NCBI GenBank assembly: GCA_021292105.1
Contig: CM037869.1
Coordinates: 23,574,050-23,638,049, forward strand
Length of the DNA: 64,000 nucleotides
Reading direction: 5' to 3'
Origin: Anadara kagoshimensis
Lineage: Eukaryota; Mollusca; Bivalvia; Arcoida; Arcidae
Made by a program: the position numbers and the translations under genes. Numbering within the stretch: position 1 is the first letter of the stretch; each line of letters opens with the position of its first letter. Below are positions 7,133-59,800 of this stretch, in pieces. The notes beneath the pieces were generated by a model. That model was not told the DNA's origin and ran no database searches. It worked only from the letters and a program-made list of their open reading frames with translations.

Positions 7133-9268
7133 TTATGAATAATTAGATAATATCATTTCTGTGGAATGATGTTTAGATAGCCCAGAAATCTTTTTCAGCA
7201 AATCATAATTAATTTCTTCAGACACAACCGAATCTTTCTTGTATGACGGATGAGCTGACACAAAATCTCGTATCCATTTGGCACCTGTCTTCAATTCTCC
7301 TAGAATGGACAAAATATATTATGAAAATCATTTAACTTTACTTTGTTTTAACAAACTAAATACTTATATATAACAGAAAGTTATAGCATTAATTTATTAG
7401 TCTCAAATTATTACTTTATTTCTGTTAAATTAATGCCATAAAAGCAATATCAAGCATTACGTATTTAACTTAATATGTAAATTGTTTTTGTGATGTAATT
7501 TGAGCATGGACTACTATAATTGTGGTTAATAAACGACAATAAGTTTATCAGGCCCCAGTTTCACAATCCTTAGCTAAGATTTTCCTTAACTTAAATCTTG
7601 TCTTTATAATTTTGTTAATTGTCACGACATTTAGGAATTTAAGGTGCCATTGTTAAGATAGTTTTGACAAATATATCCATCAGTAGTTCCAAAAAGAGAT
7701 TACTAAAATTTGCTAAAGTTAAGTTAAGGAAATACTTAGCTAAGGAATAATTGTGAAACTGGAGCCAGATCTGTATCCAAACAACATTACTAAATCAAGT
7801 TTTAAACAAAGAGTCAATGCGTTAACACATTGTTTCGTATCCTTTTACGGCAGAACCTTTCAGTTCAAATAAAAGTTAAAACATAATTATGAATTACCAG
7901 AAGCTCTTGCTGAAATTATCGCCAGGTACTCCTGTATAATTGTACGTGACTTTACATCAAGTGTCATTTCATCTACGTATTTGGACACAACGGAAATGAT
8001 CCCAGGTGTCCGTCCCTTAAAATAAATAAATAAATAATGACAAATTATACCAGTGTTGATATTACAGCACTAGGCGGTCATTTCGGAATACAATTCCTCA
8101 TCAGTAGTGCTTAGACCAAAATTTTAAATCAAACTGTTTTTCAAGTTGTTGAAAAAATGTTAAAAGGACCAAAAAATCTTTTACCAAATGCAGCTAAGGG
8201 AATACTTTGCATGATGGAGTAAATCTTAGTTTTTTGAGGAATTAAGTTCCCCGTCAGTAATACTTGGACAAAAAATGTGAAACAAAAAATGAACTTTAGT
8301 TGTTAATATGTAAACAATAAAACAGGACACTATGTTGATGTAAACTGTAAGCCATATGGCATAAAAACAGAAAAACCGAAAAACTGAAATTCTGGTTTTT
8401 TGTGTTTGACTATTTTAAAACCTACATTCATTAATGTTTGTTGACATTACAATTTGAGATATTGGTAAATCATTTTTACTAAATTTTGGACAAAGGTGTT
8501 TTTCAGATCTACCAATTTTTCAAAAAATGTTTTAACAATATTTCCAGTATAAAAAACAACATCAAGTAGATGATCTGTATTAACATTTAATGTATCCTTT
8601 GTCTCTAGCTAAACAGGTGGTGCTTACACTTCCGGAACACACGGCCTCACTTTCCTGATGGAAGTCTACGTGTCTAACCTGACTTGTCAGTTTCAAAGTT
8701 TTTACTTTGTTTTCAGATTGTGATTCGGACATGGATTAGTTTGTTTGTTTTTGATTAAAGTTGATGCTTTGTTCTTGTCGACTCTACATACGTGCCACGG
8801 GATATACTGGCAAAATTTGTGGTTTCCTTTTTTTTAATAGTTCTAAGTGAATTGAACATGAGGCACTCTCAGATCCAATTATTACCTGCATTCCATTAAT
8901 AATTTCGTTGATTGTCATCTCTGTATACAGTTTACGACTAGGCTTACAGTTTTCATTGTTAGATTGAATTGTTTTGGAATCTAATCGAGAATTTTCTGAA
9001 ATAAATAAACAAAATGTAAATGAAACTATCTCTGTAATTAAACAAGAACTTAATATAATAAGAAAGAAAATAATATTAAAAACAAACCTGTAGAATTAAA
9101 CAGATTTGAAAAAGTTCTTAAAACGTTATTAATACATGTATTTCATTGTTAATAGATTTCTAGCAAAATATCTCATTCGTATAAAACGTTTAATAATTAA
9201 TCGCCTGTCGATTATCGGTGATGAGGTTGTTAATTTGATGGACGTATGTGACAAATTCTTCGAATGGA

Positions 9269-12300: not shown

Positions 12301-15300
12301 AATATCTTCATTATAATACAGATTGTCCAGGTTATATTCTTTATTTCTCTCTGAAAGGTAACATGCTACAGACTCCCATCGCCGTCTGATTTGTTTATTG
12401 TCTTTTGTCTGAAAGTTATATTTGAAATTTTGAAATTGACTGTGGTGAACTAATAAATCAAAGAATATTGATAATAAAATAAAAAAGTGGCAATTGCCAC
12501 TTGTTTATTTTTTGAAAAATTAATTTGTCGCAAAGAGCATAAACTTCTATCTCTTACTTTGCTCCGTCTATTTCAATCGCTTGAAATAGTTGTATGCGTC
12601 GCTGTAGAGGGCGCAAGTGATCTACTCTTTTTTTGAACTCTATAGAGTTGGCTTTATCGTGCACTGAGACACGGGACCTCGATATTGAGTCTCATCAGAT
12701 AACTATACAGGTATTTAGCTTTTAATAGCTTTGGTATGGACAGGAGATGAAAATCATTTCAGAAAATTGCCAAATCCCGAGTAAGGTTCGAACCCACAAC
12801 CCTTGATTTTGAAAGCCAGTGACAGTAGCAATCGGCGATATATACTACACAGTTTATGGTATCTATGATAAGTTTCAGAAAAATCATACTTAAATAAATC
12901 TCCAGGCAAAATTGTATTTTTTGCTAACTTCAAAATGTGAAAAAGTCTATGTCTGGTAATAGCAATAATGCTGGCAAATTTCATCCTTATAAACTGAAAA
13001 TTGCAGTAACACTGTTCTTATAATTCTTAACATCTGAGCATATTGAAGCAAATGAAAAGTATAAATAGACGCTGAATTCCATTAGGCTGCAAAGGATTTG
13101 TTTATTTTGTGACCAACAAGATTGATATATCTTATAATAAACAACTAAAAGTCACGCTTTTATATTTTTAGATAAAACCCTAAACAACCTATCTACAAAA
13201 CTTCTGAAGAGTAAAAAAATTTACCTGTTCAAGAACCATGTTAACCACGAAACAATCACATTGCTTATAATGAGCAAGCCCGATTATGCAGATGACTTAC
13301 GTTACATTCTAGTTCATCTTTTGTCCTGTCGTCTGCACCCTGACCAGTAACATTCCATCTACTATCATAGTCTGATAGATATCCTCTATAGATAGGCGCT
13401 GCTGCAGTCAAAGCCATCTGTCAATTACAGAACAATAGAAAATAGTGATAAAACTTAACAAACATGAAGGTTCTCCAAGGGCTTTTTTGTATTTTTTTAT
13501 TGTTTCCAAACTTTTTGAATGTTTTTGCAATGTTTTCCATCCCAAAAACTTTCAAAAAAGATGGTAAAATAAAATGCCCGCAAACAGGTGAATAGATCTA
13601 AAAATATCTTGACACAAATTAAAAAAAATGCATTTTTTAAAGTATCGCGAAAAATGTTTTCACTCTTTTGTCTACCTACCAATATTGGGCATAACGGTAC
13701 AAGTTGGTCATACAAGTACTTTGTCTCTTCTAAATCTGAACATTGCAGTGTTACTTGCAAGCTACAACTGCAAAATCCAAATGCTGAGCAGTCTAAATAG
13801 ATGTTGTTTTTCATGGCTAAATGAGCAGCGTGTCTGCCGTCATGAAACGTTGATATCGCTTCTTGAAATGGATTCTGAGTGTTTTCGTCTTTGAATACTG
13901 GTAAAAATAATATAAAGTTATGAAAATCAACGAACTTGTATGCTCTCTGTGAATGTTAAATCAGATTATATAATCGTCTGCTTTAAAAATATATTTTCAA
14001 GATTTTGGGGAAAAATTGTTTGACAATTTTGATCCAAACACGACTATGGGAAATTGCATTTCCAAACGGCCGTCTAGTGCTGTGAAATTATATAATATAA
14101 TATGTGATGCTAAGAAGCACATTCTTACACCAACGGCAGTCGATAGTACGAAGTACATAAATGAATAATTCAATCATGTGATTAAAGAAATACTTTTAAA
14201 AACGATGAAGTCTTATTATACAAGTTATAATTTTGCAACACTAGACGGCCGTTTCGGAGTTCATTTTCTCATTTTTTCATCAGTAGTTCTTGGATCTTAA
14301 TTGTTAAATTTAAATTTTGTGAAGGTGTTGAAATCCCATTTCTTTTGCATCACGATCTCTATACCTTTTCCAGAACGTCATTCAAATATCTGAAGTAACT
14401 TCACTTATAATCATTCATTTATTCATGACTATGTTTTAACGTCACGTGTGACGGGTGTAGATAGCGAGTTACAAAAAAGTATATACATGTAATTGAACAT
14501 CATGCGTTGACATGTCCTAAATCAGTAATTGTAAATATAACAATATTCTCTACATCATGTTAGAAAATACAATTCCATTTCGAAAATGATCCGATAGTCT
14601 TTATATGGAAAATTATATGATTAGTAACTGCTTGTTAGTTTGTAGAGCTGTTAATATTAAATGTAAAATAAGTATAAAATATTACTAAATCGATTTTAAA
14701 TTGCAGTACTCAAGGGACGTTGGGAAATAAAATTCCTACTCATGGGTGTTAAAGTGACCAAAATTGTAGAAATCCAAATATTTGTCAGAAATTGAAATGA
14801 AAAAGATAAAAGAACCAAGCCTACTTTTTGAAATGCCTATGAATATTAAGAGTAGTTTAAGATTTTTTTCAATTTTAAAATTTCGACCAAATATTTTTGA
14901 TTAACATTGTTAAACTGACATAACAATGTATTGCCTAGCCAAGATAATACAGTTGGAAACTCTTAAAAAGTGTTGAAAGCACACCACTAGACATTTATTT
15001 AAGTGCTTTTCAAAAGTTAAGGGTATTCTAATTTGTGGTTCCAATATGTGTTTTTCTCTTTGTCTTGTGTGTTGTTTGGTTGTTTCTATCAATTACTTAT
15101 TATTGTCCTGGATATATTTGACGTCCCATAGTTCCATGTTCCTTTCACACAATTTTGATTACACGCGTGGCGGGTGTAGCTAGCTAAACAGGAGGTGCTT
15201 ACCCTTCCGGAGCGCCCGGCCTCACTTCCCTGGTGGAAGTTCACGTGTCTAATCTAACTTGTCAGTTCCAAAGTTTTTACTATGCTTCTGGATTGCTATT

Positions 15301-16105: not shown

Positions 16106-19100
16106 CGATTCGATAGTTTATAAAATACAATCAAGGGTATTTATGATGCCATACCGACTCAAATTATGAATATCGTTTTAGCGCAACAAACACGTGGAAG
16201 AACACATTCAAGATCACAACTGTAACTGGGCAAACTTTCGCGGTCATTTTATTTTTGGTTTCGCGAATTTTTTATTATTATTTTATTCGCTTGAATTTGA
16301 CTTGCAAAAGATTGTACTTTTCTGTATTCTCTCAAAAATTATCTGACGCAATAATTTATTGATTTACAAGATTTAGTTGTTATAATATATTTTGGTCCGT
16401 TGGGTTTCTTTTTAACATCTTGGGGAAAAAGTCCGGTTTCACAATTTTGCTCCAAGCACTACTATTGACTAATGTTCTAGTGCTGTAAAATTAAAACTGG
16501 CATAATATGTAATAACGTACTTTAACCTTGTATGGTTATTATATATAACTCCGTCAGGAAAAAACAACGATTGCATCTCGTTTGTTTTATGTTCTACCTT
16601 TCGTTCTGGCGCTGTAAAGTCTTCACATCCAGTTCTACAAAGATGACATAAATTTAACTAAAATTAAACGGGTTTAAGTAAAGAAATCCAAACATAATTA
16701 TCCATGTTCGAACATTAATAATTCAAGTATTCTAATTTATTATTAGTAGAGATATTTAAGAAAAAATAAAATGATTTTGATTTTGTTTTTCGACTACAAG
16801 ATCTCTTTTGAATTTTATTACTTCTTTTTAAAATTGAAAATTAACATACTAATCCATGTCCAAATTGCAATCTCAAAGCAAAGTTAAAACTTAGTTAGAA
16901 ACGTAAACTGTTACCAGACATTTCGGAAAGGTAAGCACTGTGTTCATACAAAATTGAAAACGAAAGACCCATGAGACTATTTAGACGTTAAATATACCCA
17001 GGGTTAACTTGGACACAGAGGCACCATACTAAAAAGTAACAATTTTACATATAGTCTATTTAACTTCTCTTTTTGCCGCGTATTTGTCATCAATGAGCAT
17101 ATATCATGATATTTTTATCCAATATAAACAATTACCTTGGAAAATACGACACTGTTAAAATGTCTTCATCTTTCTCTAGTAGTTGTCTTACAATTTCTCT
17201 CCTTAAAAAAGACAAATTATTTCATTTGAGTAAATAATTTGTGGCATAGGACTCTGAAAACTGCTGTAAACACCTTTAAAACTTTAAACAGTTTCGATAA
17301 CATTTCATCGTTACAATGAATATAGGTTTATAGATAAGAAAACCAGTATAGGTGAACGAGTGGATTAAAACCGCGCTATCTAGGCTCTAATCCGTATTAG
17401 ATCGGGACAGATCCTAGTGTGAAAAGGTTTTTTCGCTTTCCAAACGTCAGTGGTTTTCTTAAGGCACCAGTTTTCATCCATCCAAGACCTGGCCTTTTCG
17501 ATATAAGTTAAAAATCTTGAATTGTGCGTAAAACATCATTTATTTACTTATATAAAATAATCAAATGTACATACCTTTTTTGTATGTTGGTTTCCATAAC
17601 AACTAGACCACCACCGTCGGCTGTATAAGGCGTGTTTGGAAACCCTTCGAACATAAATGAAGCGAATTCATAACTCCATTGAGCATCGTCATTCCTGTGA
17701 GTTTAAAATATAAGATCAGGATATAATGGGTGAACGAAAACTATATCCTTCGACGTTAAAAAAATAGCTCACTATGTATAACTGTCTGTTTCGAGATGTT
17801 AAACACTTCGGTCTTCAGGGTTTATAATGAATAACATTCCGAAACAAGCAACTAGCCGTGTAAGTTACGCAGTATTGTCATTGAAAAAATATAAAGATAG
17901 TAATGACTTGGTGGTTTTACTACGCCTCCTAATAAAGTCAGGCTAGTGAGAAAGCAGTAGTACTGGTTAAATGGGGCTAAGTGAAAAAAAAAAAAAAGAT
18001 TGAGGTGGCAATAATGTTAATGTAAATAATGGGCTCAATACATAGCTGAAATCTAAGTATAAACAAACTAGCCTGCACTATTCTGAAATGTTTATAAAGA
18101 GGGCGAAATGAGTTATGATATTGGAGGTTAATTTAATTATAAACTCATTACGTAATAAAATAAATTAATTGTCAAATTATAATGTGGAAAATGTATCTTG
18201 CATTATTGAACATTCAATCCCCCTGTCACCAGTGGTGAGGGGGGTATAGTAATACCGCTGTACGTGTGTTTTTGTATGTTCGTTGATAAATTGGATTTCG
18301 TGCATTTGAAAGACAACCGTACATCCGATTGAGCTAAAACTTAGTGACTTGATTTATTGTTGCGATTAGTGACATGGGATTGCTCTACTGCCTTATAGCA
18401 TATCCAAGATGGCCGCCGTTACTATAAAAATCATAAACCTATAAATAGTCATTACAATCTTATTTATGTACCGATTTTGTTGAAATTTTAAACCCAGGGT
18501 CTCATATATATATTTATTGGGATTTTCTGTAACAATGTTTAATTTGCAAAAAAGTTATAAGATGGCCGCTATTACTGTAAATAGCAGAAACCTATAAATG
18601 GCCACTACAGTCTTGTTTATACTGTATCGAATGAGTTAGAATTTTAAACATAGAAAATAGAACTCCGGGTATTCAACATATGTAATAGGTTTTTCTGTAA
18701 AATGTTTAGTTTGCATAATATTTATGCTATGTAAAAAGGTGTATTTATAGCTTAATTCTTTAAAACTCTTCATGGCGCAGAAGGCGTGTGAGTTCAAGTT
18801 TAATTTTGCAGTATTTCTATTATCGAAATGTTATTGCCCCCTACGTTGTCACGTATTATCGTATTACGTTTATATATATATATATAGGCTATATAACGTT
18901 AGTGAAATACATCGATGTAGTGATAATTAAAGGATAAATAAAAGACATTTGTCATATTAGGTCAAATAATGCATCATTTTGATCAAAAACGTAAATACGC
19001 TTTTAGATCAGCCGTTTTGTTTTCACCATAAGGTCGGTCAGATCGTCCATCATTTAAGACAGCGATCTTTGCAAATCTCACTTAAATATTTTATCATTTC

Positions 19101-34700: not shown

Positions 34701-37700
34701 CTCGAAATCCATATGTTTCAAAGCATTGAAATGGGATACATATAAACCCAAAATGTTTTTTTACCAAATCAACTAGGGTAGAAAATTCGGGTCTATCGGA
34801 GAGTGAGAAATTTCATCAATTCAAACACTAAAAATATACAGTAATCACTGTGATTCTTTACCATTTCGTAAACCACTGCGGTAGTTCAGTTGGTAGATTG
34901 CTCGCTCCGTAAGTCAGAGGTAGTCGGTTCGAACCCTCACCGGGTCTGACCAAATACTTGAAGGTGGGTAGTGACTATTCTTTCGCCAAACACTCGGCAT
35001 TACGAAATGAAAGTCACGATTCTTTCGGATGGGAACTTAAAATAAACGTGGTATAAGTGAAATATTCTTGACTTGGACGTTAAACACAATTACTCAACTC
35101 AACTCTACAATTTCGCGAACTGAACGGCTTAATATTTCAGAAACAATCATGACCCCGCCTCATCAAAGTGTTGTGTTAGCTATACACATGGCAATATTTG
35201 TTATGCCCTAATATATTGTTGTAAAAATTAAAAGCGAATTCTAAGTCAAGGCATGACTACTATGGTAGCTTTTTGGGTAAGGGGAATGTTACCATGTCGC
35301 CAAGTATATATATTCTCTTAAACGTAATGATTGTTTATGTTTTGGACTTAGGTGCTGTAAAATAGTGTCAAATAATGTCCGCACAATACATTTGTCATGT
35401 GCTACTTTCGAGTTTTTATAAAATAATGCATTCAAAAGTTGTGCTACTATTGAATGCATTATTAAAAAAAATTAAACTTTTACATCTACGGGTGAATTGT
35501 GATCAAACTTGGTAAATCATCAGACCGCATTTAGTTGTTAGGACCCTAGGTAAAAATATCAGTAAAGGATGTGGGTATTTGACATTTCTTCTCTCTGATT
35601 TCGCTTCTTTGGTTAAACAAAGCTGGTAACGACCATGAAAACAAATTATTTTTCAAATTTTGCACGTACTTATTGAATATTTTACTACCACCAGGTTGTG
35701 TACCTAACTGTAACATTCCCGTATGTTGTACTGACGGTGTTAATTATCAGAGGGCTAACATTACCTGGTTCCTTTGAGGGATTTCTCTTCTTTATAACAC
35801 CAAAATGGCATCGTTTGACAGAAGCACAGGTAAGATAATTTCCAAAAAAATCCTATAATTACAATTTACGAAAAATATTTAAAATAAATTTATCCTAAGT
35901 CAAAAATAAAAGAACCATACTATTCCACGTTCAAATCACAATTAAGAAACAAAGTGCGGAGCTTAGCTAGTTACGCAGGGGGTTCTTACCCGTCCAGAAC
36001 AGCCAGGGAAAAGTCACGTGTTACTTAATTTGCCAGTCTTGAAAGTTTTTACGTTAAGATTTTGATGTTGACATTGATTGTTATGTGTGTTTTTGATTAT
36101 GTATCGTCAAATCATGATTGTTAACTTAAAAACAGAAGAGAAATGGTTCTAAAATAAAATATATCTCGACCAAAACCTTTATCGCCTCAAGTTTGAAAAA
36201 GATGTTCAATCAGTAAGTCACCCAAAGAACAAAAAAACCTACATTTATAAATTGCTACATGCATAATCATTTAAACCAAACAAGAGATAAACGTATTATT
36301 TATTAACCCTCGTCGATTTGTTTACACTTTTGGTACATTTATTAGAGACATATCACTGTATCATATGTATCACGTTTCCCCTTTTAGGTGTGGATTCATG
36401 CAGCTGCAACTAATTTTTTCTCGTTGGGTTTCGGAGTTGGAGGTACTATCACTCTTGCTAGCTATAATAAGAGTCAAGGTAACATTCTAAAGTAAGTAAT
36501 ATTTAAATGTTTTGTGATACACCGTTAGCTGGTAGTGATAGCTCTAAAACATTGGTTTTACAATTTTAATCCAAGCACTACTGATGAATAATCGTATTCT
36601 GAAACGGTCGTCTAGGGCTTGGAATTAACACTAGTGTAATATGTAGCGTAAAGAAATAGTTAAAAGAAGGTGTCTAAATATTACTGGTAGACCAGATTTC
36701 CAAGTGATATTTTTTAAAAAGCCTTCTCGATAGGTTGACGAGCTTTATATCCGTCACTCCGAAATCTTCAATACAGGTAAAACATTCTATTTTAAGCGGC
36801 CAGAAATTACCGAGCTAAACAAAGTTAGTAATCTTGGTGCCAACATGCCTAGACCCATTTGACATTTTTTGAAATCAGTGTACCAGTTTTGATTTTTCAT
36901 TTCAGTTTATTTCAACAACTTCTATCAGTAGTAAGAAGTTTTTGCGTTGAAAAAAAAATTAATGTATTGACCATAGTGTTGCCACTTTTACGATTAAGAA
37001 AAAGACTAATGTACGAAATTTAATTATCTCGTTTAGGCATACTCTTATCATTGCGTCGGTCGATCTATTTACATCCATAATGGCTGGAGTTGCTGTGTTC
37101 ACAAATGTAGGCTATCTGGCTGAACACCACGGCAAGGAAATGGAGGATGTAGTCAATTCTGGTAATATATGAAACATTATTATACCAGCAATGAAAATTG
37201 ATGTTTTCAATTGAAAACACGCATACTAATTCAAATGTTAAAATCACAATTCTTATGCAAAGTAAAATATTTGAAACTGACAAATTAAGTTTAACACGTG
37301 AACTTCCACAAGGAAAGTGAGGTCGGGAGCTCTGAAAGGATGAGCACCTATGCAATGTTCTATGGATAATAAATACTTTATCAATCTCATTTAATTGTAT
37401 AAATTCTGTGGTGCATTTAGCGTAATTGTATTATGAATTTATGAATATGTGTCCCTAAGTTTGTGGTTATTTTGCCTAGTCACATTTCGATTGTTATTTC
37501 GACAGTTGAATTTTTATTCCCCAAGATGAAATGCATTGTTGTTTTGGTGCCAGTCCGTTCTTTCGTTTGTCCGCTTATTCCGATGACTTCCACATGATTC
37601 AACGAACATCTTTTGGTTAAAATGTATGTTCCTACAGGTTCAATATCTCTGCTGGCAGAATTTTCCCCAAGGATACCATTATCCCAAATATTCCCTTTTG

Positions 37701-40700: not shown

Positions 40701-43522
40701 GATAATAATAATAATACAGAGTATTTATTCATGATGTATATGGAACACGATATGAGTTATCATAATCAATCAAAATGATCTTTGTGAAGTGAAGCGCATT
40801 TCATCGTGATTGCAATTGATGATGTGATTTGAGCACAGACCTGTATATTTATGTTTGATTTTATAAATTGATGATGCATTTTTAGGAGCAAGGCGATTAG
40901 CTAAAGACGTTTTAAAGATGACAGGATCAGCCCCACATATATTTATTGTAATATGTTGGTATTTCATTTCACCGGCTATTATAATTGTGAGTGTTTATAT
41001 CAGTAATTTTGTGGCATTTTTTGAAAATTTCCTTCTGCCTCTGATTGGGAAATTTGAAGCTCTGAGATCTAGCAAACTGCAATATGATATGCTGACAATA
41101 TCGAGTAACCTTATTGCAAAGACACTATAGTGTAGATCTGTCTGACATATTGTGGATAAGGACACCTACAACTAGAATGTATGTTTCTGTGCATCGCTGT
41201 TGTTTTTGGGGGAATCATGTGTGCACAATTTACGAAATTTTAGGGGGAAACTTCTTTTATTCTGTAGTTATTTTAAGTAAACAAAATCACATTGATTAAA
41301 TGTAAGATATACTTTACACCTTTGCAAACTACTTTCAGTTATTGATATTTTAATATTCGTTTATAGATAAAATGAAACTTATTCACATCCTAAGTTGATG
41401 ATTTGAAAATTTATTTTGATTGTTAACGTCTACATATTGAATGTGCTCTCATTTTTTCTGTTTTTTCTTACCATATATACATCCTATCTTTTGCTATTAA
41501 CGCGTTTTTATTGTTCAAGTTGATCATATTGTGGTGCCGTATTTTTCTGAAGTTGCTAACATTATTTTCTCAAATTGTTTTACTTTTCCTCTGGAAAGAA
41601 TATCTGCCATGCCTAACGTACAAACGCACAGAAAGGATGTTCATTGAAGGTTTTTACTTGACAAAAGATGTTGATCATAACTTTAAACGCTGGTTTAAAC
41701 AAACGCCTGACTTGTCTTGTTTCTTTTTTTTTTTTTTTGCTTTTTGACTTTCAAGTCTAGCATCTTTTGTTATTTAACACTATTTTATTTATTGCAGGCA
41801 TTATTGGTGTTCAGTATTGTGAGATATAGTCCGTTTACCTTTGGTTCCTATGTATATCCTACATGGTCGGTAGTGATGGCTTGGATTATAGCTGGTTTAC
41901 CATTAATTTGCATACCGATTGGCATGGTTCACACCTTATATAAAACACCTTCTACGTCGCTTATTGAGGTAAAATACCGGTACTTTGTTTTAGACTTGAT
42001 TAAATCAAATAGCAAAACGCATACCAATCCACGTCCAAATAACAATCCCAAAACAAAGTAATAAGTTTGAAAACTGGCAAATTAAGTAAAGAACATGAAC
42101 ATCTATCAGAGAAGTGAGGCCGGTTGCTTCGAAAGGTTTAGCTCCTCCAGTCCAACTATCTACACCTGCCACTTGTATTAAATGAACGGAAGATTGAACT
42201 ATTTAACGTCAAATATGTTTAGGGTAATTTTGGATAGACAGGCATCATACTTTTGCACAAAACCAAGGTCTGAAAAAAGAAACAGCAATGTGTGATTACA
42301 AACATGCATTTCACTCTGCTAATGTCAATGTAAACGAGAATACAAAACATCAATAAAAACAAGCAAATACGACTACAAAACAAAAACACATATTCTTAAT
42401 GAAACGAATCCTTGCTTACGGTACCTAAATATATGAACTTGACGTGATATAGTTCCATGATCCCTTCAGTCTCAATTTTGGTGTTACATTTGATGAATGC
42501 AGCTAGCAAAACGGGAGGTGACTATACTTCTAGAGCATCCGGCCACACGTCCCTGGTTCACGTGTTTAACTTAATTTTCAAGTTCCAATGCTTTTACATT
42601 GCTTGGGATTTTGATTTTGACACGAATTGGTGTCTTTGTTTTTTTGCGTGACATAATGATGCAAATGATGTGCTATTGTGTGCTAATACAGTTATGTTGT
42701 AAATAATAAGAAGTTCTGTTTTAATATGGGATTTTACGTTTATGATCACTGTGGTTATATGTAGGTTATTGCTGCATTGAAGACTCAAACAAAATGAGAA
42801 ATTTATTTTAACAACATTGTTTAAAACAGCTTTGCTAAACATATTGTTTTGAATTCAACATGGGACCCAAACTAGAAAAACATGGTTGTTGTTAAAAACA
42901 AATATTTCAAAACCATTTTGGCTAGATTATTACTATCTCTTGACACATACATATTTCTTCAGCTGGATTACTATTTCCGGCTTATTAATTTTTACCACTG
43001 AGGCGGTATCTATGCTGGTAGATGTTTCCCCGAGGATATCACAAACTCAATAGTCAATAATCGTGTATTATTGTCTAAATTTGCTGCTGGTATAAACTTG
43101 AAATTTCTCAAAAACTAAGGTATATTCCCCAATGCAAGGTATTTACTTAGCTCTATTTGGTATATATTTTGGTTCCTTAGGTATTTTCTTTTAATCTTGA
43201 AAAAAATTTGTTTCACAATTTTGTCCAAGCACTACTGATGAAGAATTTTATTCCAAAACGGCTGTCTAATGCTTTAAAATTAAAACTGGTATGATTTTTA
43301 ATTTACATATCGAATAACTCTTGGCGGACTCATTGAATGCAGAATCTAAATCAAGTATGTCAGTTACGTAAATGCAATTTCTTTCTTTCTCTTTTTCAGA
43401 GATTGCGACTGACAGTTACACCTAGAGAGATTATAAACCAAGATCAAAGTATACACATGGACATGGTTAAATATAAACAACAGTGTCAACGTCATCATCG
43501 AATCAGTTTTCATGTTGTTTAG
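24130..43522 (+). CDS. SLC6-type Na+/Cl--coupled transporter, copy 1 (damaged exon 3)
   Basis: Plasma-membrane solute:sodium symporter with 12 predicted membrane helices. Exons: 24130-24250, 28357-28491, 29066-29327, 30092-30224, 35695-35829, 36388-36491, 37037-37161, 38292-38404, 39028-39153, 39935-40034, 40886-40986, 41798-41968, 43400-43522 (1749 nt, 582 residues if readable). All junctions keep phase and use GT-AG. Landmarks: YGNIWRFPY in helix 1, [18 protein letters not shown] in helix 6, LAIDS in helix 8, [17 protein letters not shown]. Helix 1 has Gly where monoamine transporters have Asp, which points to the GABA/glycine/amino-acid branch. Exon 3 does not read through (see its own entry). 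The start is chosen at MEPGRQEWD by comparison with copy 2; the frame is open upstream to 23968. A truncated protein, a pseudogene and a sequence error are all possible. Confidence 0.9.
24277..24655 (+). mobile_element. 5'-truncated RT element just after SLC6 copy 1 exon 1
   Basis: Begins about 25 bp after the exon 1 donor. Contains RT codons for [17 protein letters not shown]-like sequence, an internal deletion, then the tail to about 24655. Sense to the gene. Confidence 0.85.
24694..24909. mobile_element. 216-bp MITE with TA target duplication
   Basis: The ends CTGTACAAACCTGCCGAAAG and its counterpart are inverted repeats matching at about 24 of 28 positions, up to GTTTAACA. TA flanks both sides (24692-24693, 24910-24911). 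Tc1/mariner-type size and target. Inside SLC6 copy 1 intron 1. Confidence 0.8.
25336..25418. repeat. Inverted repeat, possible hairpin or MITE
   Basis: TTATGGACTTTTT at 25336-25348 is the exact reverse complement of 25406-25418. A second, smaller palindrome lies at 25002-25038. No target duplication is clear. Confidence 0.55.
25965..26475 (+). repeat. Old RT-element tail split by a SINE
   Basis: The first part (25965-26048) and last part (26367-26475) together match one tail copy. The SINE at 26049-26366 interrupts it, so the tail insertion is older than the SINE. Confidence 0.8.
26049..26366 (-). mobile_element. tRNA-derived SINE inside an RT tail
   Basis: Same family as 23257-23592, with box B reading GGTTCGAATCC-like on the minus strand. 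The flanks TTCCTGGTCGA (26038-26048) and TTCCTGTCGA (26370-26379) are a near-identical target duplication. Confidence 0.85.
26881..27778 (-). mobile_element. YIDD reverse-transcriptase element, best-preserved RT part
   Basis: Minus strand. The tail is 26881-27076. The RT frame is open from 27826 down to the stop at 27077 (about 249 codons, the last ones upstream being non-homologous). Motifs in order: [20 protein letters not shown] (RT motif 4 region), [14 protein letters not shown] (catalytic YIDD), [41 protein letters not shown]. No endonuclease domain follows, and the protein ends DIFDVS. I recall similar RTs from other aquatic animals; class assignment (Penelope-like versus other non-LTR) is uncertain. 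5'-truncated near 27778. In SLC6 copy 1 intron 1. Confidence 0.9.
29066..29327 (+). pseudogene. Exon 3 of SLC6 copy 1, disrupted
   Basis: Encodes helix 3 and the large extracellular loop EL2. From the acceptor the frame is normal through [13 protein letters not shown], then meets TGA at about 29166. Compared with exon 3 of copy 2 there is a 2-base insertion near 29150 and a further 1-base insertion near 29210, which together restore frame, and then an in-frame TAA near 29270 before [10 protein letters not shown]. Total length (262 nt) differs from copy 2 (265 nt) by exactly one codon and splice phases are kept. Both EL2 cysteines are still recognisable in the shifted frame. Host-gene decay or sequencing/assembly error are both possible. 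Confidence 0.8.
30283..30375 (+). repeat. Terminal-repeat-like fragment, left (pogo/Tigger-like)
   Basis: AGTAGAACTTCGATAACTCG followed by repeated ACTTCGAGTTAT motifs. The reverse complement of 34430-34596 starts CAGTAGAACTTCGATATCTC, so the two could be ends of one element or two fragments. Resembles pogo/Tigger ends from memory only. Confidence 0.5.
30690..31745 (-). repeat. Tandem repeat, period about 155-160 bp
   Basis: Five or so units between about 31000 and 31745 share CAATCCCACACCACTCACCA, CAAATCAACTGACCAAGTTT and GGATGTACGGTTTTC, with GCGGCCATCTTTGAT between. The left part (30690-31000) is a less regular version. It is the reverse-oriented relative of 18222-18740. Ends in a (CA)n tract (31749-31787). 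Confidence 0.85.
31803..32861. mobile_element. Non-autonomous hAT-like DNA element, 1059 bp
   Basis: Exact 8-bp direct repeats TTACTATA at 31795-31802 and 32862-32869 flank the element. Its ends GGTTCATTCCCACTTAGCC and (reverse complement) GGTGTCTTCCCACTTAGCC match at 15 of 19 positions, and similarity continues through AACATTT. More copies of the GCTAAGTGGGAA motif lie just inside both ends. The interior is AT-rich with a TTTTGGAAAAAAT-type minisatellite (32340-32610) and no transposase. An 8-bp duplication is typical of hAT. Joining the flanks restores the host repeat as seen at 18240, confirming the insertion. Confidence 0.9.
32870..32900. repeat. Palindromic end of the dispersed repeat
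   Basis: CCCCCCTTACCACTGGTGGC followed by GGGGGG forms a near-perfect hairpin. It is the counterpart of the palindrome at 18222. Confidence 0.7.
33140..34352 (-). mobile_element. Decayed LINE, C-terminal RT region
   Basis: A minus-strand frame of 185 codons (33795-34352) reads [15 protein letters not shown], then [55 protein letters not shown], a pattern typical of the region after the RT domain in non-LTR retrotransposons. It continues in another frame ([12 protein letters not shown] near 33730) toward [15 protein letters not shown] near 33520, resembling the terminal C..C..H..C motif. At least one frameshift; the RT core and 5' half are absent. Confidence 0.75.
34430..34596. repeat. Terminal-repeat-like fragment, right (pogo/Tigger-like)
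   Basis: Ends TATCGAAGTTCTACTGTA, the inverted counterpart of the sequence at 30283. Contains ACTTCGAGTTAT repeats. Confidence 0.5.
34871..35104 (+). mobile_element. tRNA-derived SINE, internally shortened
   Basis: Starts AACCACTGCGGTAGTTCAGT, contains GGTTCGAACCC, ends TTGGACGTTAAACACAATTA. Flanks TACCATTTCG and TACAATTTCG look like a target duplication. The block between AATAAACG and GTGAAATATT is missing. In SLC6 copy 1 intron 4. Confidence 0.85.
35930..36105 (+). repeat. Old RT-element tails, mixed orientation
   Basis: A short minus fragment (ATTCCACGTTCAAATCACA) abuts a plus-oriented tail (AGCTTAGCTAGTTACGCAGG to ATTGTTATGTGTGTTTTTGA). In intron 5. Confidence 0.6.
36574..36619 (+). ncRNA. 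Hammerhead ribozyme, core intact, sense to SLC6 copy 1
   Basis: AGCACTA, CTGATGA, GAAA and GTC are all present at the right spacing (46 nt). Stem III ACGG/TCGT pairs with one wobble. Stem I and stem II each have one mismatch. In intron 6 (36492-37036), on the coding strand, so it would be transcribed within the pre-mRNA. Confidence 0.75.
37200..37350 (-). repeat. Old RT-element tail
   Basis: ACACGTGAACTTCCACAAGG and AAAGTGAGGTCGGGAGCTCT in the expected order. In intron 7. Confidence 0.75.
37768..37920 (-). repeat. RT-element tail
   Basis: CACCAGGGAAGTGAGA through TTAGCTAGCTACACCCGCCA. In intron 7. Confidence 0.8.
40250..40440 (-). repeat. Old RT-element tail with RT end
   Basis: AAGCTGCACCCGCCACGTG, then a gap, then GATTAGCCTAGGCTTGCAAT, which matches codons near the RT C-terminus. 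In intron 10. Confidence 0.65.
40560..40680 (+). repeat. RT-element tail
   Basis: CTTACCCTTCTGGAACACCC to TTAGTATGTTTGTTTTTGAT. Converges with the copy at 40250-40440. Confidence 0.75.
42010..42255 (-). repeat. Old RT-element tail
   Basis: GAGAAGTGAGGCCGGTTGCT and ACACCTGCCACTTG in tail order. In intron 12. Confidence 0.75.
42440..42650 (+). repeat. Old RT-element tail
   Basis: GTGATATAGTTCCATGATCC through GAGCATCCGGCCACACGTCC. Forms an opposed pair with 42010-42255. Confidence 0.75.
43228..43273 (+). repeat. Decayed hammerhead ribozyme copy
   Basis: CTGATGA and GTC are intact, but the G of the GAAA motif is A, which should abolish cleavage. Just upstream of the last exon of SLC6 copy 1, sense strand. 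Confidence 0.8.
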
Positions 43523-47883: not shown

Positions 47884-50800
47884 ATGGAGTCAAGCACATC
47901 TATACCTGGAAGACAGGAATGGGACAGACCAGTAGAGTTTCTGTTTGCCATTATCGGATACTCAGTTGGGATGGGAAATATTTGGAGATTTCCTTATACA
48001 TGCTACGAGAGCGGTGGAGGTAAACATTTAATAATTATTAAACCTGTTTCAAGTTTGCAGCATTAAAGGGCCATTTCGAAATAAAATAATTTACGCTGTT
48101 TTAATGAAAAAAATAGAAGGACAAAACTGTATTTTATTTCATCTACTGGCCATGGAGTCAATATTCTTAAAGTTTTAGCATGCTTCAGTTTTTGAGGAAT
48201 TCTAAATTTTACGAAGAAGAAAATACAAAAACAATCATACTTTTTATATTAAAATAGGTACCACTATGAAATCTTAATATGCTAACGAGGTAACTTTCAA
48301 AAAATGTTGACTCGGCGACATCGCAGTTCTAGGCTTTTTTATGCTATTGCCGTTTCCAAAATATTTGTAATAATGGTGATGTTCCTGTATCAGAATTTTT
48401 CCTGGAAATATTTGATCTCCAAAAACTCTTTGTTCCTTTCATTTTGAATTTTGATTTCACAAGTAAAGTATAGCTAGCTAGCCAGGGGTCACGTGCCCTA
48501 TCGAAGCACCAGGTTAGGTCTCACTCCTCTGGCGGAAGTTTGCCTTTTAACTGATTTGCCAGTTTTTAATTTGCTTTATCGTGTATGATTTGTGCATGGT
48601 TCGGTATGTTTGTGTTAGATTATTACGGCTATACACCATTTTTAATTTTTTCTTGCTGTATCAGATCTGTATTTTAATTAACAAGTACTTTTGAAACAAG
48701 TCTATTCTTTCATTAACATCAGGAAAAATACCAAGTACATCCAAATAAGTTATACAGGCACATCTATACGAAATTGAAAGAATCCGTCGAATTAATATAG
48801 CGACATTATTGTAGAGACTCGTTAAATCAAAAGCCTATAATAGCAACGGCAATAATAATAATAATAATAATAATAAATATTGTTATTTCAAAGCATCCTC
48901 TCTGTATATAACAAAGCTATGTACGGTTAATACTTTCAGAATACATCGCCTTCATTACCAATTTTGATAACTAACACACGTGGCAATATGTACCCTTTTG
49001 AGAGACCCGGTTTCTCTTACCAGTCGGAAGTTAACATTTTAAACTGAATTAGACAATTTTCAATTTTTTTTGTTTGTGTTATATTTTTGAAGAATGCTGC
49101 TAGGAGCTTAGAAATAGCTACGTAGTTAAGATTTTCAAAATGTATTCTTTTATTTGAATATGAATTAGTATGTTTGTTTTTATTCAAACCCTTACCGCCA
49201 TCTTTTACGCCACCAGTACAATTATAACTTAAGTATATGCAACAGGTAGTTTACAGTTCATAAGGCCATTTACCTGAAAATATTTATTCAGGATGCCATT
49301 GTTTTTTTTCAATATCTAACTCTAAAATAAATTCATCAGATAATCTTTTAAACAGCGATTAAAGTCATTGCTAAAGCGAAATGTCAATGTATTTTGACAG
49401 ACTCAATAATGCCAAACTATTAAAACGTCTTTTTATTAATACGTCCGGTATAGGCTAATAAGAAAATGATTTTGAAAATGATTTCGAGTTTATTCCTTAT
49501 TTTTTCCATATGTTATGTTTTACAAATTACAAGACACATTGATTGAAGACATAATGCTTAAACATAAAAAAATAAGTTTTACCACTAAATATATATAAGT
49601 TTAACCTTTATGTTTTCGTTTTCCGTTTAATTTCTGATTTTCACGAAGGTTAAAGCTATATTAAATAACAATGCACATATTAATGTGTTTATTTCGTGGA
49701 TAAACTATTTTGTATCAGCGATGAAATGTCATCAAAAACAGTCTGATATTATTGATTACACATAATACAACATAAAAATGGAATTTTTTCACAATAGCTT
49801 TGGTCAGCACAGAACATTTTTCGTTACACCATTGTCAAAATAAGAAAATAGAAACATTTATCATTCCAACATCTGAAAATACATTAAAGTTTTACAAGTT
49901 TTGTCCAAACACTACTAATGAGAAATTGTATTCTGAAACAGCCATCTAATGCTGTAAAACTGGAATAATATATATTCGATTCATACATTTCTAATTCACA
50001 AACCTAACTAAACGGAAAAACCTTCATTGGTACGCTTGTTTTTGTATCCGTATCACTTGTACCGTTATGAAAAACAAACATACTAATCCATGTCTGAATC
50101 ACAATCCAGAAGCAAAGTAAAAACTTTTGAACTGACAAGTTAGGTTAGACACGTGAACTTCCACCAGGGAAGTGAGGCCGGGTGCTCCGGAAGGGTAAGC
50201 ACCTCCTGTTTAGCTAGCTACACCCGCCACTTGTTAAATCAAAATTGTGTGAAAGGAACATGGAACTATGAGACGTCAAATATATCCAGGGCAATCCTGG
50301 ACACAGAAACATCAAACTTATCAACAATACTGTGATGACGGCCATAAAACTTTTTGAGGGCCTTGATAAGCCTAGGCTTGCAATATCCCCGAGTCAACAA
50401 TTTATTTGCAAGCAGCCTACTTCGTTGTACAAAGTCACCGTAGTGGGAACAAGCTCTACCATAGCGTATTAATTGGGAAACAAATACACCATAAGCAGGA
50501 GAAGCAGGTATATTGCTGCATAAAAAAGGAAAGTTGACAATAGAAAAATTGAAATCATCACGTTTGTCATAAAGTTTCAAATGTAGCCTTTCGTATTCGT
50601 CATAATTCAGGTATAAGTCTAAATATGAAGCAGAACTTGAGGAATCAGTCGTGTCTGTTATTTCAAGCTCACTAGGATAGATGACATTTACATAGTCTCC
50701 AAATTTAGGATTGTTAAGAGACAGAACGTCATCTATATTTCTGTATGTTGAGTTGAACTATTTGGCGACAGTCTTCTCTCCAGATTTAACAAGGTTCTGC

Positions 50801-53800
50801 ATAAATTCTGCTTCGTAAGAATAAAGACACAAATCAGCAAGCAATGGTGCACAGTTTGTACCCATTGATATACCGATTGTTTGCTGAAAATCTATATTAC
50901 CAAACACAACAAATATGTTATCTATCAAAATCTCCAACATTTTGTTGATGGTATCTTCAGTATATTTTTCTTTGGAATTCGTATGGTGCTTGACAAAATA
51001 ACCAGAATCCCTGTTCAGCACCAGATATTTGTATCTTGGCTTACCGTTTTTGTAAAAGAAACACAAGTGAATAATTTCTTTAAGACGTTCTTTCAATTTA
51101 GAATGAGGGATAATATTTTTATGTTGTCATTCCTTTTTGCTTGGTATTGATTATAAGGTGCGTTCCTGGTGGCGTATTTAATTATGTGGACATTGTGTGG
51201 AGTTCCGTTGTTGTACATGGAGTTAGCTATTGGTCAATATACAAGACTGGGTCCTATTGCAGCTATGGAAAAGTTGTGTCCTTTATTTAAAGGTAACATT
51301 TTATTTGTAATTTTGTACCACAAGTTTTTTACTTTGCACGTTAAAAAATTTTGAACATTGATTGGTATCTCTTAATTCTGCTGACAACCACTGCAGTAGC
51401 TCCATTGGTAGACTGCTAACTCCACTAAATGGGAGGTCGTGGGTTCGTTACCCGACTAGATCTGAACCAAGACTTAAAAGTTGATAGTGACTGCTCTTTC
51501 GCCTAGTACTCGGAATTACGAAATGGAAGTCGCGGTTCTTTAAGATGAGAACTTAAAATAAACGAGGTCCTGTGTCCTTGTAGGCTTGTCTTCACCTTCG
51601 CATATAGCTGTCGACGTCTCGATGTAAGTGAAATATTCTTGACTGGGACGTTAAACACCATTACTCAACTCTTAATTCTAACTTCAATAATTGCTCATTA
51701 GAATCAATAATTCCCATATCGACTTTTAAGATGATAAGTTAATGTTAAACGGTTAACTAGAATCAACTGTGTTTGTTATTCTGCGGTGTGTTCTTTGTAG
51801 AGCTTCTTCTTCATGTACAATTACCGATATTGCATAATGTTATCAATTATTTTCATACTTAGGTGCAGCAGCTGGATCCGTTGTCTTGATTGCCATCAGT
51901 CGAACTCTATACATGGTGATACTTGTCTGGCCATTTTATTACCTTTTCAATAGCTTCAGTCAGGAGCTTCCTTGGACCAAATGTGGACATGTATGGAACA
52001 CACAATACTGTGTTGATAATAGAGTATTAAAAACCAATCATAGTTACAGTCCTAACGAGGACAATAAGACTAACTTGATTCCCATCATGGTAAACAAAAC
52101 AACATCAGCATCCGCAGAATACTTTAGGTATAGATTATTTTTTAACCGATTTTAACAATTTTATATCAAAAACAAACATACCAGTCCAAAAGCAAAGTGA
52201 TGACTACAAAACAACAGAAAAAAACCCCGACAAATTAAGTTAAATAAGCGACCTTCCACCAAACAAGTGATGCCGGGTGTACCTCTAGTTGTCATTATTC
52301 ACCCCTGATTAATATAATTTCTTAATCTATGATTCCATGTAACATTTACTTTAAATGGCTCTATGTTTGGTCATTATAATATCAGCTTTTTACACAGATT
52401 TAATTTAGGGTACAAACTTTAAAATTATTACACGGAAAGGTTAGACCACGAAAATGGCTAAAATTCAATTGTCATTCACAAAAAAATGCTTATTAGAACC
52501 GCTAAATACTGCATGGTGTATTTTATTGAATAACAAGCTGTGTCATCTTTTTAGTATCCTTGCATTTATAATTTTGTTTTACAGAGGCAATGTGTTACAG
52601 ATCACATCAGGGATAGATGACATGGGAACTGTAAGATGGGAATTTGTTCTTATTCTCTTAGTTATTTGGATTATTATATACTTTGGTGCATTTAAAGGGA
52701 CTAAATCTGTCGGAAAGGTAATACTTATGCTAGATGACTAAATATCCCCTAGTGTTGATAAACTGATTAGGCAATATTTTTGTATTATCTGAAATATTCT
52801 ACTTTCAAAATGTGTTGCTAGTTAAAATCTAAAATTTTAAAAATCAAAGGTTTACTTTTTATGCTAAGTATTTTCTTAGCTACATTTGGACAAATATATG
52901 TTGGTCCTTTGGATATTTTAACCTCTTGAAAAATTGTTTGGTTCAAGCACTACTAATGAGGAATTGTATTCTGAACGTCCGCCTAGTGCTGTAAATCAAC
53001 AATGGTATAATATGTAATTATAAATGTACCTTTGAAGCATAAGTTTAAGACATTTTACTTATAACTTACAGGTCCGTCAAGAAAGTGTTGCAACCCACTC
53101 ATAGAACCTTGTAAAACAACAGTTTTAACGGTATAAGTACTTGATGGTTTGTTAACTTATATTTGTCGGAGGACTTTCTTTATATACTTCATTAAAACTA
53201 AAATTGATCCTTTTATCAGTTATGTCATTTAAAAACATTCTATGCACAAAATAAAAATATGCCTTTGGCAAATATAAGTTAATAAAACATTAAGTACTAA
53301 AACCGTCAAAACCGCCAAAAACTGTTGTTTGACAAAAGGTTCTGTGAGGGGGGCGCAAAACTTTCTGGACGGACCAGTATATTTAAAATCAATAACAAAA
53401 AGAATAAATATGAATTAACGTTGAAAGAAATTGGACACCAAGCACACATGCAATATAATCACAACCATCAGTACACGAACCTGCTCATAAAAACATTTTG
53501 AACACCAGTTAGTCACCATTCCAATTTCTGTTAAGATTAAATCATGTCATCTAAATTTAATTGTTCCAGATTGTGTATGTAACGGTACTTTTTCCATATG
53601 CTGTTCTGGTTGTGTTGATTATAAGAGGATTAACATTGCCTGGGTCATATGAAGGAATGCTGTTTCTTTTCACACCAAAATGGCAACGTCTGACTGAACC
53701 ACAGGTGAGAAAAATTATCAAATTACACATTATTGGATTTAAGAGCCAAGTCAATCTGGTGGTATTGACATTGCATGTAGGTCTACAATTTTGTATGAAC

Positions 53801-56800: not shown

Positions 56801-59800
56801 ACCCTTTCAAATTATTTCATAGCCATTTGTTAAACGATTAACAATGTGTTTGAAAATAAATATCAATTTTAATAATAATATTCACGGCAGTGAGTGACAT
56901 TTATATATCTTTGTATCAAATGTTAATTTGATAATTGTATTTTATATTTACAGTTCTCCTATTTCAGGTATCGAACTTGTGTTTATAGTATTTCCTGAGA
57001 TTTTTACTGTAATGCCGTTACCACAACTGATGTCTATTTTGTTTTTTCTAATGATCATTACACTTGCATTAGATTCAATGGTAAGTTTTTTAATATGCCA
57101 TTCTTTTACATAATCGGTATGATTATACAATTATCTTGTCCTTAACAGGGAATCCGGTTATTTTGTCAAGCACCATACGGACTTAAAAAAAACCCTGAAG
57201 ATACCATTATAGATAGTTTGTTTTCGGACTTCAAAAAAATCTACTGAAGATACCATAATAAATGAATCGTTTGTTTACGGACTACAAAAAATCTACTGAA
57301 GATACCATTATAAATGAAGAGTTTGTTTTAGACGTTCTTTCAATTAAGAATGGAGGATAGGAAATGAATAATGATAATTACATATTATACCAGTTAAAAT
57401 TTTTACAGCGCTTGACGGCCGTTTCGGAATAAAATTCCTTGTCAGTAAGTCTAGGACCAAACTTCTGAAACCAAATTGTTTTCAAGATGTTGAAAAGATA
57501 CCCAAAGGACCAAAATATATTTTATAGAAAAGAAACTTGATTTGATACACATATTTCTTATTATCTTAATTACAGAACCTACACAATTAAGTTATTTCAG
57601 ATCTCAAACGAAAAGTAAATTGAATTATTTGTGTTATTAAGTATTTATAAAAGTTGAAAAAACGAAAACTTCAGCGCTTCTTTCTTTAAGTTGTATCATA
57701 TATGATTTTTATCTTTTCACAGCTAGTTGGTCCTGAAATATGTGTAACTGCAATAACAGATAGATTTAAACATTTGCCAAGAAGAGAAATTCTCTATGCC
57801 ATAGCATGTATTCTGTTCTATTTTCTTGGATTCCCAACAATTGCCCAGGTATGCGAGGACATAAGGTTGTGTTAAAATTTAAAACTATAAGTTTCTATTC
57901 AAATTTCATAATGTCCAAGTGGAATACACAACAAATGCAGAAAAAACTATAGACGATCAATCGCAAACATAAATCACAATCGAAAACTTTGGATTTGTTG
58001 AAATGAAATCGGACATATTATGTCATTTTCAAATCCTAAATAGCAAGATTAAAACTTTGACAATTAAATTAAACACGTGAACTCCCACCGAAAAGTGTGC
58101 GAAGGACCCAGTATATTGCTTCTCTGGCGGAAGTTTACGTGTTTCTTTTTTTAGTCAGATTTTAATTTTTTGGGATTGTGATTTGCATATGGACCGAAAG
58201 GTTTAGGTTTGAACATTAACAATACACATCATTGAATGACAATCGCATAAGTTCAACATTAACTGATTCTTAAAAAAGGTTTTCTTGTTAAAAACAGTTT
58301 TTGTATTAAATATAGTGTGTATTCTTAAAGTTACTGAATGTATTTCAATGTCATAATATGATTTAAGGGGTAATATTCGGAAAAATAGGTGTTGTAAAGA
58401 AATCTTTTTAGTCTCTACATTTACCTCCTAATTGGGACACACACACACACATACACACACAGCTTTTTAAATGCCTTCTATTACATATTATACCAGTTTT
58501 AATTTTACAGCACTAGACGGCCGTTTCGGAATACAATTCCTCATCAGTAGTGCTTGGACCAAAATCATGAAACCAAAATTATTTTTAAGATTTTGAAAAG
58601 CTACCCAAAGGACCAAAATATATTTTACCAAATTAAGCTAAGGAAATACTTTGCATGAGAGAGTATACCTTAGTTTTTGAAAAATTTCAAATTATAACTT
58701 GCAGGAAATTTAGACAATTATAGTATATTTCTGACAATTATACGAAATTATTGCCTACTGAGTTTGTGATATCCTCAAGGCACCAGCCACCAGCAGAGAT
58801 ATCGGCTCAGGGGTTTAAATTACATATTATACCAGTTTTAATTTTACAGCACTAGACGGCCGTTTCGGAATACAATTCCTCATCAGTAGTGCTTGAACCA
58901 AAATTATGAAATCAAAATTATTATAATACTTATATAATGTTATTTTATACTTTTCAGGGTGGAATGTACTTTTTTGCACTCATAGATTATTATCTCAACT
59001 TCGTATCTTCCATCTCATTAGCATTCTTCGAAATCATAGCAGTATCTTGGTTTTATGGTAATTAAATAATTATTTTTCTTTACATTTCTGTTTAACTGTA
59101 CACTGAAACCTCAATTCATCGACATCAAAAGCTAAGTTTATTTTGGCGTTATAAATGGGTTTCGGCGATGAATTGAAAGCAGCTTTAAAAGAAAACATAG
59201 ACGGATTATATTTTTGACATAAAAATTTTGCGGTGATAACTGATTTGGCAAAATTATCACAAGGTTTTATTGTATGTCAATAACGCTTTTCTGTTTACTA
59301 CGTCAGTGCCCAAGTGGTTAAAATGCATTCTTAAGATTTATGTGCTTGGTTTTTGCTGTTGTTGTTGTTGTGTTGTGTTTATGTTCTTGTTTCCACTTTC
59401 ATGTTACGTGAACAATATTTAGCTGAAACTCTTGTTTCATGGAGTATATTTTTATGACTATGTTTCTGAGGTTGTCATCATTGCAAAATAATTCTCTTCT
59501 AAAATGCATTGTATTAAAATAACAAACTCAGATATGTTTACAGTTGCCTTACATACATGTAATTGCAAAATTAATAAGAGACTTTATAAGTGCATTCATT
59601 TGATATGATTTAACTGATTTTGGTGGAATAATCTTCATTTCGACTTAATATAATGAAATATATTGAGATTTTTTACGACAAAACACAGACGTAATAAATT
59701 ATGTAATATAACTTTAATAAAATTTGACCATTAACCATCTATCGTTTTAGGAGCAAGGGTATTGGCGAAGAATGTATTTGACATTACAGGTTCAGCTCCA

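Follow-up and report, generated by a model that had tools for sequence, protein, structure and literature searches.

In the 64,000-nucleotide stretch of Anadara kagoshimensis DNA analyzed here (the window), we found a short insertion that carries two copies of a type I hammerhead ribozyme on the minus strand; no open reading frame of 120 or more amino acids was found to overlap 58480-58922. Its parts are given below in window positions, R1 being a covariance model of hammerhead plus tail whose training set includes both window hammerheads.

58480..58922, minus strand: whole retrozyme insertion, 443 bp, 1.31 units, 32% G+C
58480..58583, minus strand: 104-nt terminal repeat, RNA-3' copy (hammerhead plus tail)
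58819..58922, minus strand: 104-nt terminal repeat, RNA-5' copy
58510..58553, minus strand: hammerhead ribozyme 1, type I (Rfam RF00163, 28.1 bits; R1, 134.9 bits)
58849..58892, minus strand: hammerhead ribozyme 2, type I, identical to 1 (RF00163, 28.1 bits; R1, 134.3 bits)
58516..58854, minus strand: predicted unit RNA of 339 nt (core-to-core spacing), which two cleavages would release
58480..58515, minus strand: 36-nt tail from the predicted cut to the fixed RNA-3' boundary, a boundary common to 36 of 37 independent insertions

The RNA-3' end of the insertion is at 58480 and the truncated RNA-5' end at 58922. The two terminal repeats form a direct repeat of 97% identity (58480-58583 and 58819-58922, spacing 339) separated by a 235-nt middle; across the hammerhead region 48 bases are identical between both repeat copies, and the three differences all lie outside the hammerhead. 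Cleavage is predicted after the C at 58516 in hammerhead 1 (58516/58515) and at 58855/58854 in hammerhead 2. By its sequence, the hammerhead has a stem I of six pairs and a stem II of five pairs with a UGU loop. The sequence-only reading had reported two identical minus-strand motifs 339 bp apart, and on both points it was right, as each motif matches RF00163 with the core bases present and the direct repeat has the same spacing. It had found the locus but misplaced its limits (58481-58930, here corrected to 58480-58922), and it had described stem III as palindromic and loop-less; the palindrome stands, while the stem is more naturally drawn as two pairs (A-U and C-G) closing a palindromic GGCC, which would also allow pairing between dimers. 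Base composition is of little help at this locus, since the element (32% G+C) and the unit (33%) resemble the window, which is likewise at 32%. The two units of this copy do not match each other: they disagree at unit positions 246, 253, and 262, with lineage alleles (those fixed in at least two loci) at two of the three, and they represent two haplotypes found at other loci, one L014-like and the other L012/L016-like, which makes the window copy an atypical, mixed dimer.

A covariance search with the Rfam Hammerhead_1 model (RF00163), which the earlier reading had proposed as a check, matches both motifs at 28.1 bits (E-value 1.1e-4 per motif in a 701-base search) and leaves both below the gathering score of 34, so that a scan of the window at Rfam gathering thresholds returned no hammerhead. 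A loose hammerhead-core pattern occurs four times in the window, the reported motifs accounting for two, with 0.28 expected from shuffles. Single-strand folding fails to single out the hammerhead fold (z of -0.38 for 339 nt, -1.08 for 56 nt, and -0.07 for 104 nt). Covariation in the stems lends weak support to the ribozyme: across 93 distinct rows 93.7% of cells are paired, with 12 double-sided changes against 2.4 in shuffles, in an alignment that was fitted to the structure and of which slid versions yield 4 to 13 double-changed cells.

Several other features lie in the window. An exon of the SLC6 type (sodium:neurotransmitter symporter) at 58958-59059 on the plus strand begins 35 nt from the insertion, with the ribozyme antisense to it; its PF00209 match (22.7 bits, E 4.7e-5) is under the cut-off of 27. 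The stretch 36389-36478 resembles by eye another SLC6-type exon and has no Pfam match, and 23516-23587 (minus strand) gives a tRNA gene-like match of 34.9 bits.

The window also contains older copies of the same element. R1, with E-values up to 0.1, finds 18 copies (10 on the minus and 8 on the plus strand), both reported motifs among them; 12 of the 18 are training copies and match by construction.

57377..57481, minus strand: older degraded copy that ends at the same tail point (R1 101 bits, training set)
43200..43302, plus strand: older copy (R1 107.7 bits, training set)
36545..36647, plus strand: older copy (R1 97.3 bits, training set)
52929..53018, plus strand: older copy (R1 83.6 bits, training set)
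49879..49976, plus strand: older copy (R1 86.3 bits, training set)
8037..8140, minus strand: older copy (R1 112.6 bits, training set)
6148..6250, plus strand: older copy (R1 101.4 bits, training set)
9834..9939, minus strand: older copy with one stem II pair changed on both sides (R1 96.8 bits, training set)
14008..14108, plus strand: older copy (R1 86.5 bits, training set)
14208..14319, minus strand: older copy (R1 80 bits, training set)
16426..16513, plus strand: older copy with a broken hammerhead (R1 77.7 bits, outside the training set)

Ten of the 12 older window copies found by BLAST end no more than 7 nt from the same tail point, the two exceptions starting at query 13 (29366) and query 69 (20807). 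Across the genome (1.115 Gb, 36 contigs) a 32-mer from the hammerhead has 14,471 matches with up to three mismatches (7,265 and 7,206 on the two strands), and the reversed control has none. The window insertion belongs to a dispersed family of animal non-LTR retrozymes, the family being new and the kind already known. The retrozyme-like nature suggested by the earlier reading is borne out by a short AT-rich unit, the lack of a long open reading frame, the type I hammerheads, and the occurrence of dispersed copies from dimers to 13-mers. That reading was limited to a single locus; the family, its fixed end, the homogeneous arrays, and the resemblance to Penelope-like elements go further than it did.

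We compared a sample of loci consisting of all 39 places other than the window copy among 64 matches (from the best 40 of 4,244 candidates scored), each with 2-kb flanks. The window copy brings the total to 40 elements. L024, L027, and L035 have the same two flanks as other elements and were set aside as segmental duplicates. The remaining 37 independent insertions measure 1.31 to 13.13 units (443 to 4,450 bp); having been picked as top matches to a 443-nt query, they under-represent short inserts. At the RNA-3' side 36 of the 37 stop 1 to 9 nt after GGTATAATATG, 20 of the 36 at +4 or +5, so that the end falls 33 to 41 nt beyond the predicted cut, most often at 36 to 37; the exception, L034, ends earlier. 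The RNA-5' ends are scattered over unit positions 14 to 324 (Kolmogorov-Smirnov test against uniform, p = 0.17, n = 37), and all 37 stay more than 2 nt away from unit position 304, the first base after the cut, the nearest being at 301. A few RNA-5' ends coincide despite different flanks (position 143-144 in L012, L016, and L044; 293 in L014 and L017), and these are perhaps preferred stop points of the enzyme.

The boundary is also visible genome-wide, where 19,547 tails match a 28-mer ending at the boundary and only 1,656 of them (8.5%) continue for 20 nt into another unit, against 9,099 of 18,929 (48%) retained for a control extension of equal length inside the hammerhead; part of the drop past the boundary may come from divergence where the unit begins. 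Three further 28-mers from within the unit have 2,919 (positions 1-28, satellite included), 11,345 (about 147-174), and 6,781 (about 206-233) matches, so that counts broadly fall away from the RNA-3' end, not monotonically and over windows that differ in variability. Target-site duplications are mostly absent in the family, which we count against our main reading. A narrow search found duplications of at least 6 nt in 4 of 36 insertions (2.0 expected) and of at least 5 nt in 11 of 36 (6.4 expected); in a wide window the own flanks had a mean of 5.8 against 5.3, with at least 7 nt in 8 of 36 against 12.6% in exchanged pairs, and the longest duplication (15 nt, L046) sits in repeated flanking sequence.

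These ends constrain the template. The RNA-3' boundary of the tail (58480-58515) probably marks the point where reverse transcription starts, and a start about 36 nt past the cut would, on a cleaved linear monomer, permit only about 36 nt of cDNA. Since all 37 inserts are at least 443 bp long, the template had no cut end there and was either a circle or an uncleaved multimer. The 339-nt circular RNA predicted by the sequence-only reading thereby gains indirect support, because a self-cleaved linear monomer could not yield inserts of several units whose start lies about 36 nt beyond the cut; an uncleaved multimer could be their template too.

Within loci the units are more alike than between them, with an average divergence of 1.9% against 3.5%. 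Six arrays have four or more units, and where a site is represented in four units or more, each of the 26 variants found within arrays occurs in a single unit (L013, L017, L020, L025, and L028; the sixth array, L036, has no variant). In L017 most of the 13 full units are identical. Such singleton, star-like variation suggests that an array was made at once and then mutated, not built by step-wise duplication. When units were compared for lineage alleles (14 alleles at 13 sites polymorphic between loci), 28 of 37 loci had no between-unit difference that matches one, and arrays mostly have one template each. The matches amount to 10 of 207 within-array variants, in 9 of 37 loci, with about 3 expected, and such differences inside arrays point, in some of them, to more than one template, a template switch, a heterogeneous multimer, or later recombination. 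A separate case is formed by L023, L027, and L035 (C12:4.26-4.30 Mb), where the same insertion is present in three segmental duplicates with 1.35, 2.35, and 2.25 units, from which it follows that unit number can change after insertion.

Selection on the hammerhead and tail is partly supported, and the evidence is mixed. Of 99 units covered over their full length, 89 retain an intact core, and two or more such units are present in 29 of 37 loci. The ratio of variants fixed in all units to those present in some is 5/46 for the hammerhead, 2/13 for the tail, and 91/148 for the rest of the unit (Fisher p for depletion of fixed variants, 5.8e-5 in the hammerhead and 0.058 in the tail), raw counts that are inflated by shared ancestry. 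Counted once per site and allele, fixed versus partial variants are 7/56 in hammerhead plus tail against 46/118 elsewhere (Fisher p = 0.008), and none of the 14 alleles fixed in two or more loci falls in hammerhead plus tail (p = 0.022). Alleles private to one locus show no depletion there (7 of 33 fixed versus 35 of 113 partial, p = 0.38), so the signal of selection rests on alleles common to several loci, that is, on older template lineages.

A derivative without the ribozyme was also found. A satellite of 148-nt units at C2:10.73-12.21 Mb (L088) is a retrozyme derivative that has lost the hammerhead and most of the tail, its unit joining retrozyme unit positions 1 to about 137 to positions 327-338, close to the RNA-3' end (601 bases read). 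Its junction pattern has 101 matches, on one strand, and the 100 listed all lie within a 1.5-Mb stretch of C2. Satellite variants are common to several units, unlike the singleton variants of the retrozyme arrays. The ribozyme-bearing form is thus dispersed and the ribozyme-less form is not, in what is a single case.

A search of the same genome for GIY-YIG domains gave at least 50 matches (best 150 of 248 candidates scored). Three of the four translated stretches scanned contain both RVT_1 and GIY-YIG (RVT_1 below cut-off in one) and the fourth GIY-YIG alone, and the two domains together make at least three stretches Penelope-like. The genome's best GIY-YIG match, L048 (G000 C22:287804-288031), has an internal TGA. 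Its contig is small and may belong to a bacterial associate that reads TGA as tryptophan; the long open reading frame beside the match resembles, by eye, a subunit of a bacterial repair nuclease.

A minimal hammerhead lies past the GIY-YIG domain in 14 of the 20 loci L048-L067 with a strict pattern and in 15 of the 20 loci L068-L087 with a looser one, the pairs L057/L059 and L058/L060 being possible duplicates of each other. An Rfam scan of 11 GIY-YIG loci with E-values up to 1 returned no hammerhead and is uninformative on absence, because it also missed the retrozyme hammerhead of L052 (R1 136.1 bits). Read by eye, Penelope-like copies run into (TA)n or other flank about 32 to 51 nt past the cut in one set and about 60 to 105 nt in another, a geometry (about 32 to 105 nt) that the retrozyme ends at 33 to 41 nt resemble. 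Several Penelope-like families are present among L050-L087, some with a short and a long end class, and many copies end in (TA)n. Compared with the tails of five Penelope-like elements, the retrozyme tail shows no convincing sequence similarity (lowest uncorrected p values 0.038 and 0.040); most of the five end in (TA)n, which the retrozyme flanks lack, and the preferred targets differ. Since the Penelope-like copies, too, stop a short distance beyond a hammerhead, we consider a reverse transcriptase of the Penelope type the leading, though unproven, candidate for the mobilizer, and we give it about even odds.

Our results lead us to favor, with a probability of roughly 0.7, a non-autonomous animal retrozyme whose RNA would form a circle that is copied by a foreign reverse transcriptase from a fixed internal start into a tandem insert. 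Minus-strand transcripts with two or more type I hammerheads would cut themselves into 339-nt units, and a host ligase would close these units into circles, a step that others have suggested for related elements. The reverse transcriptase would come from another element, most likely a Penelope-type one; it would nick the target and start copying the circle into cDNA at one fixed internal site, some 36 nt (33 to 41) downstream of the cut. It would then go one to many laps and fall off, leaving a tandem insert with a fixed RNA-3' end and a random RNA-5' end. In this scheme the cleavage, the circles, and the identity of the enzyme are what we infer. Extended to animal retrozymes in general, the proposal would be that a Penelope-type enzyme recognizes hammerhead plus tail and carries out target-primed rolling-circle reverse transcription, that each array records one round, and that loss of the ribozyme turns the element into a local satellite; for this wider statement the chances are nearly balanced and tilt slightly against.

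The enzyme could instead be of the LINE type, mobilizing the element by target-primed reverse transcription, and we regard this as unlikely while giving it real weight. Truncation at the 5' side with a single fixed 3' end is LINE-like, and 15-bp target duplications have been reported for Nematostella repeats (PMC4918200). No poly(A) or simple-repeat tail was seen at the insertion ends, the start is internal and past the hammerhead, target duplications are few, and the genome's own Penelope-like elements share a similar end geometry, all of which speaks against a LINE enzyme.

A second alternative concerns the template, which might be an uncleaved multimeric transcript of an existing array that is read from the same fixed tail start and never forms a circle. 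In vitro, a lizard Penelope-like element used mainly unprocessed RNA as its substrate, and none of the reads started or stopped at the hammerhead cut (PMC11167929); both the mixed dimer of the window and the excess of partial variants that match lineage alleles (10 of 207, about 3 expected) fit a multimer. The 13-unit array of L017 would then need 13 uncleaved hammerheads in a row and a near-identical source array, and the singleton pattern (26 of 26), the 28 of 37 loci without a lineage-allele difference between units, and the avoidance of hammerhead and tail by alleles common to several loci (0 of 14) also argue against it, so that we consider a multimer template improbable.

Ordinary satellite DNA spreading by unequal crossing-over, with an incidental hammerhead, could account for tandem arrays of up to 13 units and for the varying unit number among the duplicates L023, L027, and L035; it is hard to reconcile with short arrays dispersed over many contigs that share one end point and star-like variation, and the ribozyme-less derivative displays here what a local satellite looks like (one region, variants common to units), so we think it very unlikely. 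Helitrons are marked by a 5'-TC, a CTRR-hairpin end, and an A|T target. Rolling-circle DNA replication by a Helitron-like transposon, or re-integration of extrachromosomal circular DNA, could also give one fixed and one variable end with mostly no target duplication, but neither 5'-TC nor CTRR-hairpin ends were seen at the insertion ends by eye and one would expect circular DNA to open at any phase, which leaves hardly any room for either.

Retrozymes of the non-LTR kind have been described in mussel, coral, and axolotl, with about 5,000 type I hammerhead copies in Mytilus galloprovincialis, and the authors suggested that their circles are copied by a reverse transcriptase with suitable priming, Penelope-like elements being strong candidates (PMC7229834). 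Animal elements of this kind are further characterized by tandem units of about 150 to 450 bp, a G+C content under 50%, the lack of an LTR, PBS, PPT, and coding capacity, and target duplications that, where they occur, exceed 4 bp. The family found here resembles these metazoan elements (Acropora, Mytilus, and axolotl) in its type I hammerhead with a weak stem III, in a unit of low G+C within the range of 170 to 400 nt, in occurring as dimers to long tandems in thousands of copies, and in sharing the genome with Penelope-like elements (PMC7229834). Its unit of 339 nt compares with 350 to 390 nt in the mussel, its target duplications are mostly absent, and its circles are predicted, whereas expression and circles have been demonstrated for the published elements (PMC7229834). 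The fixed start about 36 nt past the cut, the star-like arrays, and the ribozyme-less satellite are features for which we found no counterpart in the portions of that paper available to us (PMC7229834).

The closest parallel for the ends comes from Poseidon, a Penelope-like element of Anolis, in which reverse transcription starts at two internal sites that are not homologous to the target and that correspond to an optional 30- to 40-nt tail (PMC11167929). The retrozyme shares with it a start downstream of the hammerhead, tandem or partial-tandem copies, and AT-rich targets (PMC11167929). Penelope-like elements encode a reverse transcriptase and GIY-YIG, and the retrozyme, without an open reading frame of at least 120 amino acids, is hence not itself Penelope-like; their hammerheads are of the minimal kind (PMC11167929) whereas that of the retrozyme is type I, and we accept no homology between the tails. 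Like the LTR retrozymes of plants, the element is non-autonomous, with a hammerhead-flanked unit and, by our reading, a circular RNA intermediate (PMC4918200). Plant elements have type III hammerheads in LTRs, PBS and PPT, and 4-bp target duplications (PMC4918200); here the hammerhead matches the type I model and there is mostly no target duplication. Hammerhead repeats of newt and schistosome are described mainly as satellites (PMC7229834, PMC8490949), from which the short, dispersed, end-defined arrays found here differ.

A 2020 review from a laboratory that described retrozymes states that the metazoan repeats have no conserved motif that would reveal the mobilizing retrotransposon, and names cDNA of more than one unit from a circular template as the likely route (PMC7761336). 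In the open-access main texts we found no published report of a fixed internal start in retrozymes. The copying of an RNA circle from one fixed start had been proposed earlier and not pinned down. The anatomy of the ends, the homogeneity of the arrays, and a natural deletion now point to a concrete start point and a testable class of enzyme. They also indicate that one and the same sequence can be a mobile ribozyme element or, when its ribozyme is missing, satellite DNA, and, if the rolling-circle reading is true, genomic arrays of this family would be direct records of the laps that a reverse transcriptase made around one RNA circle.
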